Part shown: positions 12,177 through 21,738 of the stretch, in pieces
Layout: every line of letters starts with the position of its first letter
How positions within the stretch are numbered: position 1 is the stretch's first letter
From: Crocinitomicaceae bacterium
GTDB taxonomy: Bacteria > Bacteroidota > Bacteroidia > Flavobacteriales_D > Crocinitomicaceae
Length of the DNA: 64,000 nucleotides
Direction: 5' to 3'
NCBI GenBank assembly: GCA_030833845.1
Contig: JAURGK010000008.1
Span: 1-64,000 of the forward strand
The notes under the pieces: generated by a model
The model's input: the letters and a program-made list of their open reading frames with translations, nothing else
What the model was told of the DNA's origin: nothing
Databases searched by the model: none
Position numbers and translations under genes: made by a program

Positions 12177-12704
12177 ATGAAGCAGTTACTCATATTATTT
12201 TGCCTTTGTTTGAGTAATGGTATCCTAAGTCAGAATGTATTTGACATTGCTAGGTCTGGCACAAAAAGTCAGATGGAAACCTACTTAGATTTACACCCCG
12301 CAGACCTCAATATCAAATCTGAACATGGGGCTAGTCCTTTTTTATTGGCCGCCTACAGGGGAAATAACGAAGTTGCACTCTTGCTTATTGAAAAAGGAGC
12401 AGATTTAACATACTGTTATGCTGAAGGTGCAGCCATCTATGCGCTCATTTACAAAAATAATCTGCCTTTACTTGATGAAATTCTCAAGCGTGGCGTGAAC
12501 CCAAACGATACTTGTCAATTTGAACAAATGGGCTACCCTCTACATTTTGCGCTAAGTCTTCAAAAAATTGAAGCCGTAGAACTATTGCTTAAATATAATG
12601 CACGGACAGATATTTTAGATCCGCAACAAAGAACAATTCCACAACTTTTAAAGTTATACAACAACAAGAATTTAAATGACCTCTTTGAAAAATATGAAAA
12701 ATAG
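12177..12704 (+). CDS. Secreted ankyrin-repeat protein
   Basis: The 175-residue protein has a signal peptide (about 1-18, LLILFCLCLSNGILSQ) and three to four ankyrin repeats: HGASPFLLAAYRGNNEVALLLIEKGAD, AIYALIYKNNLPLLDEILKRGV and YPLHFALSLQKIEAVELLLKYNA segments carry the typical helix-turn-helix pattern. It would be a periplasmic protein-binding module with an unknown partner. It overlaps the next gene by 11 bases, so translation of the two is likely coupled. Confidence 0.8.
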   Translation: MKQLLILFCLCLSNGILSQNVFDIARSGTKSQMETYLDLHPADLNIKSEHGASPFLLAAYRGNNEVALLLIEKGADLTYCYAEGAAIYALIYKNNLPLLDEILKRGVNPNDTCQFEQMGYPLHFALSLQKIEAVELLLKYNARTDILDPQQRTIPQLLKLYNNKNLNDLFEKYEK

Positions 12705-14385
12705 AATCTTATTCATTTGCATTATTGTATTGGGACTCCAACAAGCATTTGGGCAAATTTACACCACTGGCACCGTTAATTTAAGTTCTACCAGCGGCTT
12801 GGCTATGACCGCTAAAATTGATATTGGAACCCAGGTAAATTTAACTTTAACAGGGCCGGCAGGGCGCTGGTTTGCGCTCGGATTCAATGCAAGCTCTATG
12901 ACCAACGGAACAGATGTGGTTGGTGTTCATAGCGCCAGCACCTTATCGGCATTTGATTGTAAATTAATAGGGTTTAGCGCGCCGGTTGCAGATCCTATGC
13001 AAAATTGGACGATCAATACTGATGTTGTAAGCGGAGGGGTGCGTACCATAACGGCATCTCGCCCCCTCAATACCGGAGATGCCAACGACTTTGTTTTTCC
13101 TTCTGCACCCTCATCTATGAGTCTTATTTGGGCGAGGTCAGGCGCTGCTACCTTCAGTTATAGCAATCATGGTGGATCAAACAGGGGCGTAGTTACGGTT
13201 GGTTTTACACAGGTATCCCCGCCTGCAGCACCCACTGGAGCAGCAAACCAAACATTTTGTACAGGTGCAACCTTGGCACAAATTGTGGCTGTTGGAACCT
13301 CAATTCAATGGTATGCTACTCCAACAGGAGGTCAGCCTTTGCCCGCCAATACGCCACTCATCAACGGAAATACATATTATGCTACTCAAATCGTTAATGG
13401 ATTAGAATCAACAAACCGCTTGGCTGTGTCTATCACACTCAATACAGTGCCAGCCGCACCTTCTACCATTGCTGGTGCTCTTGATTTTTGTTATTCTTCA
13501 AGTAGCCAAGTTTATAGCATAACTAATGTTGTTGGTGCAACTAGCTATTTATGGACCTTGCCAAATGGCGCCTCTGGCACAAGTACCAGCCCATCCATTG
13601 ACCTCCAATTTAATCAGAGTTTTCAAAGTGGCTCCCTTAGTGTAGTTGCCATAAATAGTTGTGGGCAAAGTGGTCCGTCTACCATTTTGATCAATCAACA
13701 TATGGCCTCCAACACTGTTTTAAATATCAATACTTGCAATGCCTACACATTCAACGGTCAGAACTATTCACAAAGTGGCACTTATGACTTTCAAGGATCT
13801 ACAATTTGGGGATGTGATTCTATTGTTACCCTGAATCTGACAATTTCACCGGTTATCGAAACAAATTTTTCCGATAATGCTTGTGGTTCTTACCCATGGA
13901 ATGGCCAGACTTATTTCACAAGTGGAGTATATACCGACACCCTACAAACAACGTCTGGATGTGATTCTATTGTCACTTTAAATTTAAATGTTTATCCAAT
14001 TGAGGCCATTCTTATAGACAGCACTGTTCTTGATTTATTTGTCTGGAACGGAACTCAATATACCACCTCAGGTACCTATACACAGAATTTCACCTCAGTA
14101 CATGGTTGTGATAGCACTGTCACTATTGATCTCATTATTGAAGATAGTGGCTTATTGGACTTCAATAAAAAATATAGCATGAGTCCAAATCCAGTTAAAA
14201 AAACTGAAATAATTTTTATCAAAGGCCTATTTCAAAAAGTAGATTACAGCATTGTAAATTTACTTGGAGAGAAAATGCAAGAAGGATCTACAACAGGACA
14301 AATTATTTTAAACAATTCAATTCAAATGGGCTCCTACCTCATTGTTATTGAAGGTAAATCGTATCAAATTTCCATTATTGATTAA
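12694..14385 (+). CDS. DOMON-domain T9SS type A secreted protein
   Basis: A signal peptide (MKNRILFICIIVLGLQQAFG) leads into a DOMON-like domain (about 22-172: GRWFALGFNASSM, VVGVHSAS, NWTIN, ITASRPLNTGD), a fold that binds haem or sugars. Then come an Ig-like domain (177-251), a PKD-like domain (252-339), three ~42-residue repeats each ending GCDSxVTLxL (346-484) and a T9SS type A sorting domain (492-563, SPNPVKK). It should be exported and attached to the cell surface. The ATG at 12694 is chosen over 12676 because it starts the signal peptide cleanly. Its stop overlaps the crtY-blh stop by 4 bases. Confidence 0.85.
   Translation: MKNRILFICIIVLGLQQAFGQIYTTGTVNLSSTSGLAMTAKIDIGTQVNLTLTGPAGRWFALGFNASSMTNGTDVVGVHSASTLSAFDCKLIGFSAPVADPMQNWTINTDVVSGGVRTITASRPLNTGDANDFVFPSAPSSMSLIWARSGAATFSYSNHGGSNRGVVTVGFTQVSPPAAPTGAANQTFCTGATLAQIVAVGTSIQWYATPTGGQPLPANTPLINGNTYYATQIVNGLESTNRLAVSITLNTVPAAPSTIAGALDFCYSSSSQVYSITNVVGATSYLWTLPNGASGTSTSPSIDLQFNQSFQSGSLSVVAINSCGQSGPSTILINQHMASNTVLNINTCNAYTFNGQNYSQSGTYDFQGSTIWGCDSIVTLNLTISPVIETNFSDNACGSYPWNGQTYFTSGVYTDTLQTTSGCDSIVTLNLNVYPIEAILIDSTVLDLFVWNGTQYTTSGTYTQNFTSVHGCDSTVTIDLIIEDSGLLDFNKKYSMSPNPVKKTEIIFIKGLFQKVDYSIVNLLGEKMQEGSTTGQIILNNSIQMGSYLIVIEGKSYQISIID
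13729..14145 (+). repeat. Three in-frame GCDS module repeats
   Basis: Three protein-level repeats of about 42 residues share the pattern NGxxYxxSGxYxxxxxxxxGCDSxVTLxL. A related single copy stands just before the sorting domain of the LamG protein at 21358-21483. Confidence 0.8.
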
Positions 14386-16340
14386 GGCTCTTTGTGCTCA
14401 TTATAACTTTGATGCATGTACCAAACATGCGGGAAACTTAAGGCGGAAAGAAATATAAATACAAGTCCCCAATTTGGGTCAGGATTCAATGCATAGTAAA
14501 GTGCAAATAACATGAATGCACCCAAGGTAAACGGCAAAGCTTGTTTCCACATCTGCAATGTTGTCATTTCTAATTTATTTTTCAAATGACCCCAACCATA
14601 CAAGCTGTGTTGAAAAACAAAATAGACGCCAAAGGCTTGAATCAAAGGCAAGCAACTTGCCAAAAACAAAAATAAAATTGTTTTGAGCATATTGAAATGG
14701 CCTCGGTGGTCATTGTAGTACCATGCAATGATTGCCATAAGCCCAAGACCGATTGGTCCAATAAACATGAGGTCTTGATGAATAGTTAAAGGGGCATTGA
14801 TTCGCATCTGACCTAAAATTAGCGTTGTTTGATCCCAATGCGCCAACAGCACGAATCCAAGGACGAATAAGCCCCAAAAAAAACTCGCCAAACCCGTTTG
14901 TTGTTTCCATTGATCAAAATCTGCTTGGCCAAAATGCCATGCCGTATAGCCTAGAAATATGACCAACGCCAAAGGAGCTGCAAATTTCCAAAGCAATAGC
15001 ATTATGCTTCCAAGCGCGAGATATTTGAATATGAATTTCCAGAATCCTGATGAGCGAAATGTGTGATTAGGCAAGTGATCAAGGGCGCCATGTGGAATAC
15101 CAACGGTGAAAAGTCCAAGTATCAAACAAAAATAACTTAAGGCCTGTAAGTGAAAAATATTAAAAATAAGCAGAAGAAAAGTAATCAAAATGGTCCCATT
15201 TCCTTCTTTAAACTTGTAAAGTGCCTGATACAACAGATCATTGAATGCCGCCACAACAAAAGGTAATATTGGCAATGAGGACATAATGCGTAAATCTTGC
15301 AGGAGTGAACTTCTTTCATCTAAAAAGTCAAGAATATACCGGGCGTGGTTTTTTTCAAAAAGTTGGCTGAAAATCTGCTTTCCAAGCTGTGGTTTTTTGG
15401 CCAATATTTGAAGCAAAAGGCGGTCATAGAATACAAAGCGTGAAGCACTTTTGCGACGTGCAATATGCTTTGTCTTGTTTTGAATTGATGCAACAATTGA
15501 TTGGGCATCAGTTAAACTGCGAACAAATGAATACCCAGTACTTGGCTTAAGTTGCCCACTCCCAGCGCCCGTTCTAATCCAATTTGGTGGTAAATTTTCA
15601 TTTTGTAAGCGCCCACTGCACATGGGAATGCAACCCTTCTCTTCTTCCAAAACTTGGTAGCTAGTTTTATGCTCAGCCAAATAATCAGTAATGATTTTTT
15701 GTGCCTCGTGTTCAGTGATTGGCTCTTGTCCAAAACGCGTGGGTTCCAACAATGCTTGGTTCTTAGTAAAAGGCAAGACATACAAGAACTGGGTTTGCTC
15801 ATGCTGAGGGATTGCAAAATCCATCATGGTAAAGGTCTGAGGGTCAAAGATTTCCTCTTTGGTTTGTACAATGCAGCCATAAAAGCTTTGATGCAACCTT
15901 ACTTCGTTGGCTTTTAAATTTTGAAATTTCGGAGGGCGACTGTCAAAAACCCAAGTGGCTAATTGTCTATTGGCGTTATCTAGCGCTTGTGCCTTCCAAA
16001 CTACCTCATATTGCAAAAGTAGTTTCTTTACATGGGCATAAAACACATCTGCCCTGAGGTAAAAATATTTCTTATTACTTAATTCTTTCGGTGTTAAATT
16101 GTTGATTTTCAAACTATCCCAACTAAACGAAACCAAAGTATCGAGTTGATAGGCATTTAGTTTTTCTGGCTCAAGCCAAAAGCAAAAAGTACGGTCATTG
16201 GCTATTTTTTCTGAGGGCTCATAAACCAAAATGCGTTTGTTTTCAAGCAAACCAAGCCTGTGCAATTCAACAAAAACTAATGAATTGGCACAACCCATGC
16301 CAATGAAGGCAAAATCAAAAGATGGTATTGGTTCAGACAA
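14382..16340 (-). CDS. Lycopene beta-cyclase / beta-carotene 15,15'-dioxygenase fusion (CrtY-Blh)
   Basis: This 652-residue protein joins two consecutive carotenoid enzymes. Residues 1-370 are a CrtY-type lycopene beta-cyclase: FAD-binding FAFIGMGCANS (11-20), NDRTFCFW (48-55), KPSTGYSF (265-272) and a C-terminal FYDRLLLQIL. Residues ~380-652 are a Brp/Blh membrane dioxygenase with helices and the histidine motifs GIPHGALDH (414-422), WHFGQADF (468-475), FQHSLYGWGH (576-585) and FPHVWYMHQ (636-644), the likely iron ligands. The product pathway is lycopene to beta-carotene to retinal at the inner membrane. No in-frame ATG or GTG exists between an upstream stop and the body of the protein, so TTG at 16340 is the start. 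There is no internal stop or frameshift between the halves. Confidence 0.92.
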   Translation of the reverse strand: MSEPIPSFDFAFIGMGCANSLVFVELHRLGLLENKRILVYEPSEKIANDRTFCFWLEPEKLNAYQLDTLVSFSWDSLKINNLTPKELSNKKYFYLRADVFYAHVKKLLLQYEVVWKAQALDNANRQLATWVFDSRPPKFQNLKANEVRLHQSFYGCIVQTKEEIFDPQTFTMMDFAIPQHEQTQFLYVLPFTKNQALLEPTRFGQEPITEHEAQKIITDYLAEHKTSYQVLEEEKGCIPMCSGRLQNENLPPNWIRTGAGSGQLKPSTGYSFVRSLTDAQSIVASIQNKTKHIARRKSASRFVFYDRLLLQILAKKPQLGKQIFSQLFEKNHARYILDFLDERSSLLQDLRIMSSLPILPFVVAAFNDLLYQALYKFKEGNGTILITFLLLIFNIFHLQALSYFCLILGLFTVGIPHGALDHLPNHTFRSSGFWKFIFKYLALGSIMLLLWKFAAPLALVIFLGYTAWHFGQADFDQWKQQTGLASFFWGLFVLGFVLLAHWDQTTLILGQMRINAPLTIHQDLMFIGPIGLGLMAIIAWYYNDHRGHFNMLKTILFLFLASCLPLIQAFGVYFVFQHSLYGWGHLKNKLEMTTLQMWKQALPFTLGAFMLFALYYALNPDPNWGLVFIFLSALSFPHVWYMHQSYNEHKEP

Positions 16341-19759: not shown

Positions 19760-19812
19760 CTGTTTCAAAGTAACGGAATATTCCCTAATTTCGATGAAAT
19801 AAAATGTTACTT

Positions 19813-21738
19813 ATGCGATTCATTTTACCTTTCTTATGCATCTTAGCCTTTACTTCAATTGCACAAATACCAAGCTATGTGCCCATCTATGGCCTACAAT
19901 GTTATTACCCATTTAATGGAAATGGCAATGATGCTAGCAGCCAAAACAATCACCTCACTAACAATGGGGCTGTGCTTACCTCAGACAGATTTGGCAACCC
20001 CAATTCAGCTTACGATTTTGATGGCATCAGTGCCTATTTAACCAAAACAAATCCGAGTTGGATATTCAATTCCACCTCTACATTTACAGTTTCTTTTTGG
20101 GCCAACCGTCAGAATACGGCAACAAATGGGATTGCCATTATGAATAGTACTGCGACAGGTGGAAATTTCATTTGGATTTGGCAAGCAAATGGAACTGATA
20201 TGAAATATGGCACCAATAAGCAAGGTGCAGCTTGGATCTGGATTACCAATCCGAGTACAAATAATATTTGGACCCACTATGTAATGGTGTATAATGCCGG
20301 AACCATGCAGCTCTATCAAGACAATGTGCTGGTAGGAACCAACACCTTCACGCATACTGGAGTCAATAGTGCAAACTTACCACTCTGGATTGGCAGGGGC
20401 CACGGCGGCAATCCATTTTATGGAAAGATTGATGATGTCGGGATTTGGAATCGGGTGCTCAGCCCCTGTGAAATTCACGACTTATATACGGCAAGCAATA
20501 CATTGACAACGGTAAGTGCTGGGCCCGATTTATATGCTTGTAATGGCGGATCAGTAACCCTCAACGGGACTGGCGCGCAAACATACCTTTGGTCTCCAAA
20601 TGTGGTGAACGGCAGTAGCTTTACCCCTACTATTAATCAAACTTATACGCTCACTGGTTTTGATATGAATAACTGTTCTGCTTGGGATCAGACTAATATA
20701 CTTTTAGAACAATTCACCATTAATGCCGGCCCCGATGTAGTAGTGTGCCAGGGAGATAGTGCGGTTTTGAGTGCCACAGGAGCTCCAAATATAATTTGGA
20801 ATAGCAATGATGTGAGCAATGGCATTCCGTTTTTCCCAATCAATAGTGGGTATATAACAGCATTTGCTACAAGTGCAAATGGCTGCCAAGCCAGTGATTC
20901 AGTATTGCTAACCATCAATCCTTCCCCTACCATTAATGCAGGTTTTGATTTAGCCTTGTGCCCTGGCGATAGTCTATTACTTGGGGCAAGTGGAGCTTCA
21001 AACATACTTTGGAATGGCAATATTGCTAACAATAGCTACATTACTCCAATGAGCAGCCAAGATTATATTGCCACGGGGACAGATAGCTTGGGGTGCAGTG
21101 GATCAGATACTATTACTGTAAGCCTTGGCGCATTTCCAGACCTCGATGCGGGTCCTGATATTTCTGTATGCTATGGAGATGAAATTACCTTGAATGGCAC
21201 AGGAGGTATTTTTATGTTCTGGGACAACAATGTTGTGGATGGCATTCCTTTTGTGCCACTGCTAAGTCAATCGTATGTGCTAACGGGGGCTTCCCCTGAA
21301 GGTTGTGTTGGAACTGACACGGTTAATGTAACAGTAAACGACAACATTGTGCTTGAGATCATTGCCGAAGCCATTGATAGCTATACGCTGAATGGCCAAA
21401 CATATACGCAGTCAGGAACTTATACCCAAATATTGACAAGCTCTACTGGTTGCGACAGCACCATCAACCTCTATCTTACCTTAGATTTCACAGGCTTGGA
21501 AGAAAACAATACCGCTATGTGGAGTATTTATCCCAATCCAGCAAAAGATGTTCTTTATTTAATGAGTCACACCGCCTTCAATGATTCAGAGATAATCATT
21601 TTTGATTCTTATGGTAGGCAAATACGGAGTGCCGTTGCTAATGAATCAACAAAGGCACTTGAGCTTTTGGAAATTCCTAACGGAATTTATTTTATTCAAA
21701 TCGGCGCCTTAACTAAACGCTTCGAAATACTCCGCTAG
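19813..21738 (+). CDS. LamG-domain T9SS type A secreted protein
   Basis: After a signal peptide (MRFILPFLCILAFTSIAQ) comes a LamG/concanavalin-like jelly-roll (about 25-225: CYYPFNGNGNDASSQNN, AYDFDG, FTVSFWANR, IDDVGIWNRVLS), a sugar- or ligand-binding domain. It is followed by four ~69-residue PKD/Ig-like repeats (each NAGPD..C.GDS....), one GCDS module and a T9SS type A sorting domain (YPNPAKD onward). It should be displayed on the cell surface or released. ATG 19804 is three codons upstream; 19813 gives a cleaner signal peptide and lies 19 bases after a one-mismatch -7 (TAATTTCG, 19786-19793). Confidence 0.83.
   Translation: MRFILPFLCILAFTSIAQIPSYVPIYGLQCYYPFNGNGNDASSQNNHLTNNGAVLTSDRFGNPNSAYDFDGISAYLTKTNPSWIFNSTSTFTVSFWANRQNTATNGIAIMNSTATGGNFIWIWQANGTDMKYGTNKQGAAWIWITNPSTNNIWTHYVMVYNAGTMQLYQDNVLVGTNTFTHTGVNSANLPLWIGRGHGGNPFYGKIDDVGIWNRVLSPCEIHDLYTASNTLTTVSAGPDLYACNGGSVTLNGTGAQTYLWSPNVVNGSSFTPTINQTYTLTGFDMNNCSAWDQTNILLEQFTINAGPDVVVCQGDSAVLSATGAPNIIWNSNDVSNGIPFFPINSGYITAFATSANGCQASDSVLLTINPSPTINAGFDLALCPGDSLLLGASGASNILWNGNIANNSYITPMSSQDYIATGTDSLGCSGSDTITVSLGAFPDLDAGPDISVCYGDEITLNGTGGIFMFWDNNVVDGIPFVPLLSQSYVLTGASPEGCVGTDTVNVTVNDNIVLEIIAEAIDSYTLNGQTYTQSGTYTQILTSSTGCDSTINLYLTLDFTGLEENNTAMWSIYPNPAKDVLYLMSHTAFNDSEIIIFDSYGRQIRSAVANESTKALELLEIPNGIYFIQIGALTKRFEILR
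20512..21345 (+). repeat. Four tandem PKD/Ig-like protein repeats
   Basis: Four consecutive repeats of 68-71 residues share the opening AGPD(or F)xxxCxGD, a central W, and a closing GCxxxD. DNA-level identity is low, so they are old duplications. Confidence 0.8.

Follow-up and report, generated by a model that had tools for sequence, protein, structure and literature searches.

A CrtY-type lycopene cyclase fused to a Brp/Blh dioxygenase recurs across an order of Bacteroidota and is a probable retinal-forming enzyme

Can a single bacterial protein both make beta-carotene and cut it, and what would such a protein do in a genome that also encodes a second, unrelated lycopene cyclase? The question is raised by one gene in a 64,000-nucleotide stretch of DNA (the window) from a Crocinitomicaceae bacterium of the order Flavobacteriales_D, phylum Bacteroidota (assembly GCA_030833845.1, contig JAURGK010000008.1, positions 1 to 64,000), in which a CrtY-type lycopene cyclase and a Brp/Blh beta-carotene dioxygenase are joined in one reading frame. 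Read from sequence, the fusion is widespread, both of its halves are conserved, its domain trees form a pattern fitting one origin, and it is associated with rhodopsin genes. The fused protein is very probably a bifunctional membrane enzyme that would carry lycopene through beta-carotene to retinal for rhodopsin, with the other cyclase, CrtYcd, probably serving a separate pigment.

Domain organization of the fused protein

The 652-codon frame contains no internal stop (Table 1). Pfam places PF05834 (Lycopene_cycl) on its first half over profile positions 1 to 376 of 380 (150.9 bits against a cut-off of 23.4, E = 7.1e-44) and PF15461 (BCD) on its second half over positions 2 to 263 of 267 (111.2 bits against 28, E = 8.8e-32); the second half also passes the NCBIfam model for Brp/Blh, TIGR03753 (142.4 against 95.25 bits). 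The motifs NDRTFCFW and KPSTGYSF are both found in the CrtY half. A first-pass annotation, made from the DNA alone, had described one uninterrupted frame for a complete CrtY bearing these motifs, followed by a complete Brp/Blh, and that description holds. A predicted structural model, for which 20 related sequences served as input, has a mean predicted local distance difference test score (pLDDT) of 86.2. Among the best 50 rows listed in each fold search, flavoprotein-like folds stand first: the best PDB matches are geranylgeranyl reductases, and the top match among viral models is the lycopene cyclase of Mimiviridae sp. ChoanoV1. A sequence search of the PDB with the fused protein returned nothing better than E 0.42.

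Table 1. Positions of the fused gene, its parts and selected codons in the window, and of a carotenoid gene cluster elsewhere in the source genome
Feature	Position	Strand	Evidence or conservation
Fused CrtY-type lycopene cyclase and Brp/Blh dioxygenase gene	14382..16340	(-)	Open reading frame (ORF), 652 amino acids, TTG start
CrtY-type domain, residues 9-362	15255..16316	(-)	PF05834
Joint between domains, residues 363-408	15117..15254	(-)	Mostly helical in the predicted model
Brp/Blh domain, residues 409-642	14415..15116	(-)	PF15461, TIGR03753; membrane helices predicted (model)
Codon of Glu199, putative catalytic acid in the CrtY domain	15744..15746	(-)	85/85 fused
Codon of His417	15090..15092	(-)	15/15 fused and 19/19 stand-alone rows; 85/85 fused
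Codon of His469	14934..14936	(-)	15/15 fused and 19/19 stand-alone rows; 85/85 fused
Codon of His578	14607..14609	(-)	15/15 fused and 19/19 stand-alone rows; 85/85 fused
Codon of His638	14427..14429	(-)	15/15 fused and 19/19 stand-alone rows; 85/85 fused
Codon of Gly582	about 14595-14597	(-)	Gly at the position of an HxxxH histidine of a characterized Blh
Three overlapping genes: CruF-like, CrtZ-like, CrtYc/d	L164:7935-9711 (contig C24, source genome)		

Distribution of the fusion

Far from being an oddity of one organism, the fusion occurs as a strict single-frame gene in 87 of the 399 genomes that were sampled from the order, the source genome included. Strict here means one place that runs from residue 9 or earlier to residue 615 or later without a stop; the search with the fused protein gave matches of any kind in 171 of the 399 genomes, again counting the source genome. 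Genes that contig ends truncate or divide (G072, G321 and G376, for example) fall outside the 87, as do those of G328 (start at residue 49, and a stop), G237 (start at residue 119) and G359 (two frames). In the last of these, at locus L135, the fused gene lies in two overlapping frames, which reflects a genuine frameshift or else a fault in the assembly.

In a sample of the phylum, PF15461 matches occur in 59 of 395 genomes, six of them within frames of at least 600 amino acids. One of the six, a 958-amino-acid frame of G627 with a Blh match, was rejected as a fusion: the DNA there is GC-rich and leaves a long frame open, and the CrtYc/d gene is read in a different frame. G000, G008, G600, G616 and G714 hold the five remaining long frames; those of G600 and G714 were read and both are fusions, and since these two genomes share only the phylum with the source genome, the fusion extends beyond its class.

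A second collection, of named loci, was made up of the best 80 of 390 confirmed relative stretches, and a single-frame fusion is present in all 80, at least two of them cut by contig ends. A search for further full-length fusions had been proposed in the first-pass annotation, and both collections contain them. The titles of the kept loci are those of metagenome-assembled genomes of Crocinitomicaceae, Cryomorphaceae, Chitinophagaceae, Saprospiraceae and others. On a few fusion-bearing metagenome bins (L041, L052, L113 and others) the titles look like misnomers, among them Chryseobacterium gleum, Chitinophaga pinensis and Streptomyces griseus; some, Streptomyces griseus for one, are not credible as hosts of the fused gene.

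Conserved residues and selection

Are both halves maintained as enzymes? We compared 85 distinct fused proteins (the set under 99% identity) at positions chosen for inspection. G14, G16, C53, W55, D174, E199, T201, K265, T268, G269 and D306 of the CrtY half are invariant in all 85, among them the dinucleotide-binding glycines (G14 and G16) and Glu199, by analogy with a Pantoea CrtY the candidate catalytic acid of the cyclase. In the Blh half, H417, D421, H469, H501, H578, S579 and H638 are likewise invariant (85/85), and H422 is kept in 82 of the 85. The first-pass annotation had noted four histidine motifs in this half; four histidines, H417, H469, H578 and H638, are common to all 34 rows of an alignment of 15 fused and 19 stand-alone Blh. 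H501, found in every fused protein, occurs in few of the stand-alone Blh rows.

The joint is fairly constant, with 47 to 55 residues between positions 361 and 414 across the 85 proteins. A stop or frameshift near residues 370 to 385, named beforehand as a result that would undo the fusion, was not encountered; the reading frame continues across the joint in all 85 distinct copies. Ratios of nonsynonymous to synonymous substitution rates (dN/dS) were 0.06 to 0.25 for the CrtY half and 0.07 to 0.25 for the Blh half in 14 printed comparisons, drawn from 81 pairs of 72 to 97% identity, several of the 14 being one genome under two locus identifiers. Both halves of the fusion thus evolve under purifying selection.

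Origin and unfused relatives

How many times did the fusion arise? Domain trees were built from 46 fused proteins, picked greedily at 57% identity from 110 fused loci after seven loci (duplicate, cut, broken or unfused) had been dropped, with 13 stand-alone CrtY rows added to the CrtY tree and 25 stand-alone Blh rows to the Blh tree. The fused CrtY domains lie on one side of a branch with support of 98/96. In the Blh tree, the fused domains form one clade (support 100/99) together with four stand-alone Blh from genomes labelled g52 (L126, L127, L128 and L132); several long branches occur in the fused and the stand-alone sets alike. The trees fit a single origin of the fusion. Tree tests did not reject a single clade of the 46 fused rows (p 0.339), and they did not reject one that unites all 25 stand-alone Blh rows either (p 0.237). 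No CrtY match is listed for the g52 genomes of L126, L127, L128 and L132 in the search with the fused protein, and their stand-alone Blh may have lost the CrtY half by fission or may represent a sister branch that predates the fusion. Unfused crtY and blh genes adjoin on one strand in six relatives (L123, L133, L142, L143, L146 and L154), an arrangement that is a natural starting point for a fusion.

Association with rhodopsin genes

Rhodopsin requires retinal. The first-pass annotation saw no rhodopsin gene in the window, of which not every ORF was put through a family search, and supposed that the organism may have one elsewhere. It was found there: the source genome has a single rhodopsin match, of 249 amino acids, on contig C20 rather than on the contig of the window, and its stretch RYVDWMLTVPLMCVEF bears a D-T-E pattern, which we take to be the sign of a proton pump.

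Across the order, a PF01036 rhodopsin match is present in 182 of the 399 genomes. It occurs in 79 of the 87 fusion genomes versus 103 of the 312 others (Fisher p 2.6e-23, a value that ignores the relatedness of the genomes). Genomes with any PF15461 match have a rhodopsin in 151 of 170 cases, versus 31 of 229 without PF15461, and therefore the link is a trait of Blh in general and not of the fusion alone. The rhodopsin gene lies 91 to 277 base pairs from the fusion in 37 of the 71 fusion genomes with listed places; for eight more fusion genomes with a rhodopsin the place is not listed, so 71 were used for distance. Of the 80 named loci, 34 have a rhodopsin ORF no more than 1 kb from the fusion: 22 of these ORFs are upstream of it and 6 downstream, all on its own strand, and 6 are on the opposite strand. 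The other 46 loci showed none at that distance, which is partly an effect of short flanks. The association bears indirectly on the predicted cleavage of beta-carotene to retinal.

Other carotenoid genes and a second cyclase

What else does the source genome do with lycopene? It is a draft of 44 contigs, 94.7% complete. On contig C23, genes for CrtID (which passes an NCBIfam equivalog model), phytoene synthase (PF00494) and isopentenyl-diphosphate isomerase stand in a row, and a protein on C20 exceeds the NCBIfam equivalog cut-off for CrtD. Three overlapping genes on C24 (Table 1) are likely pigment genes. The CruF-like protein matches PF04240 and scores under the NCBIfam cut-offs for CruF. The cyclase of this cluster, CrtYcd, is of the CrtYc/d type (PF18916, and TIGR03462 over its cut-off), a family unrelated to CrtY, and its gene is overlapped by crtZ. 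The CrtZ-like protein has no match in Pfam and NCBIfam; it owes its label to similarity to an FA_hydroxylase protein that adjoins a stand-alone crtY in G014. A PF04116 search had indicated that CrtZ was absent from the source genome, which proved wrong when a protein search matched the CrtZ-like ORF in the C24 cluster.

Family searches found no Blh and no full-length CrtY in the draft besides the fusion, negatives that are weak because Pfam and NCBIfam missed the CrtZ-like protein. The fusion, although no other Blh or full-length CrtY turned up in the source genome, is not its only cyclase. Of the stand-alone genes that the first-pass annotation had proposed to look for, none was found, and the second cyclase had not been foreseen. 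Because CrtYcd adjoins crtZ and the CruF-like gene, the fusion need not supply a ring-bearing pigment.

We read the surroundings of crtZ in 15 other fusion genomes, hand-picked from those with listed places. A CrtYc/d stands beside crtZ in 12 of them and was not found in the stretches read in G037, G042 and G050; that of G042 runs into a contig end. Nor was one found beside crtZ in G157, which has CrtY without Blh. The CrtZ-like matches of the g52 genomes G056, G059, G068 and G180 lie in frames of 227 to 250 amino acids, versus roughly 150 to 180 in many others.

Proposed role and alternatives

In the reading that we favor, the FAD (flavin adenine dinucleotide)-dependent CrtY half would form a ring at each end of lycopene and so produce beta-carotene. 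The membrane-embedded Blh half would then cleave this product to retinal, which the proteorhodopsin encoded on another contig needs as its chromophore. On a second route, made up of CrtYc/d, CrtD, CrtZ and the CruF-like protein, lycopene would go into a pigment, perhaps a one-ringed (monocyclic) one. The retinal branch would then have a cyclase of its own, fixed 1:1 to the cleaving enzyme by the fusion. We infer both enzyme activities from sequence, and likewise the division of labor between the fused cyclase and CrtYcd; the benefit of being fused may lie in a fixed dosage or in hand-over of beta-carotene, of which dosage seems somewhat more likely.

Several observations weigh against this picture. 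Besides the relatedness left out of the Fisher test, the rhodopsin and fusion genes are not adjacent in 34 of the 71 genomes, that of the source included, and no rhodopsin match was found in 8 of the 87 fusion genomes (G069, G078, G090, G117, G145, G258, G323 and G392). Further matches to the fused protein occur in 9 of the 87, in seven of which the additional one listed is a CrtY without Blh. The cyclase half scores under both NCBIfam cut-offs (98.2 against 209.5 for TIGR01790 and 55.6 against 215.2 for TIGR01789) and so is not filed under either. The Blh half has Gly582 in place of a histidine found in a characterized Blh. All four stand-alone-Blh genomes that were inspected (G056, G059, G068 and G180) likewise have a CrtYc/d beside crtZ, so the pairing is shared beyond the fusion genomes and is no proof by itself of a division of labor.

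Does the CrtY half hand beta-carotene directly to its Blh partner, bypassing the bulk pool of the membrane, and is the fusion kept for that reason? The steps are consecutive, the substrate is hydrophobic, the fusion has long been kept and its joint varies little in length, and a separate cyclase is at hand for other products. A fixed 1:1 dosage and joint expression would account for the same facts, however, and relatives manage with unfused neighboring genes, and we regard channeling as possible but doubtful. We are similarly skeptical, without dismissing the idea, that labor is not divided at all and that the fused cyclase also feeds pigment rings, sharing one carotene pool with CrtYcd. The CrtYcd pairing in all four stand-alone-Blh genomes and the three fusion genomes, out of 15, in which the sequence inspected around crtZ showed no CrtYcd would fit such a pool; against it, crtZ in the source genome overlaps the crtYcd gene and not the fusion, and in the fusion genome G057 crtZ adjoins an additional crtY that stands alone. 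The boldest version, in which a single old fusion is a dedicated retinal synthase that releases no beta-carotene and insulates the rhodopsin supply from the pigment branch with its unrelated cyclase, is unlikely to hold in full.

Could only one half be active, or could the Blh half cut another carotenoid, such as a monocyclic one, to other products? The substitution at Gly582 and the scores of the cyclase half under the NCBIfam cut-offs would favor this. We take position 582 to be that of the second, metal-binding histidine of an HxxxH pair, presumably needed in the characterized enzyme. No histidine stands there in any of the 15 fused or 19 stand-alone Blh rows of the alignment, and the second histidine would thus not seem to define the family; the Blh of G627 reads HALRH. 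A special loss of a catalytic histidine in the fused Blh was rejected because none of the 19 stand-alone Blh carries it either, and some of these stand beside rhodopsin genes, as in G131. With purifying selection acting on both halves as well, this alternative is improbable. That an assembly or sequencing error merged two neighboring genes, as a 44-contig draft and the unfused crtY-blh neighbors of relatives might allow, is rejected as next to impossible because the same single-frame joint is carried by other genomes, 87 of 399 in the order and all 80 kept named loci.

What are the wider consequences of the fusion? To our knowledge, the way in which a cell shares out its lycopene to pigment and to retinal has been little studied. 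Two unrelated cyclases in one genome, one of them joined to the cleaving enzyme, make that question experimentally tractable. The fused protein may serve as a one-gene retinal-making module in laboratory hosts, and annotation that gives one name per protein would miss either crtY or blh in genomes like the 87 of 399.

Comparison with known systems

The nearest bacterial counterparts are found in those rhodopsin-bearing Bacteroidota that have crtY and blh as two genes. These genes share both domain families with the fusion and, presumably, both steps; they differ in making two proteins instead of one, and the fused halves group apart from them in the trees, save for the four stand-alone Blh. 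No prokaryotic CrtY-Blh fusion was found in the accessible portion of the open-access literature, a scope that leaves subscription journals and preprints aside. According to the available text of PMC10016063, the protist Thecamonas trahens has a four-domain CrtI-CrtB-CrtYc/d-Blh protein, which resembles the fusion in joining a lycopene cyclase and a C-terminal Blh in one polypeptide and differs in being eukaryotic, in having four domains and in using a CrtYc/d-type cyclase unrelated to CrtY. The cyclase part of the fusion matches PF05834 and not CrtYc/d, which is a separate gene in the source genome. The same text describes a fused CrtIBY in thraustochytrids, again with consecutive carotenoid enzymes in one polypeptide, although with a CrtYc/d cyclase and without Blh (PMC10016063). 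Because the nearest published case in the text available has an unrelated cyclase, CrtY-Blh appears to be a new pairing among carotenoid fusion enzymes, one that is widespread, kept and has a plausible role.

For the pigment branch, the flexixanthin pathway of Algoriphagus, which uses CrtYcd, CruF, CrtD and CrtZ as described in the available text of PMC10784355, offers a comparison. The comparison covers crtI, crtB, crtD and the cruF-crtZ-crtYcd cluster, all of which the source genome has.

Neighboring genes in the window

Two large ORFs of the window, at 12676-14385 and 19804-21738, contain repeated stretches such as CDSIVTLNL or CDSTINLYL. Their C-terminal ends are alike, and they perhaps encode secreted cell-surface proteins.

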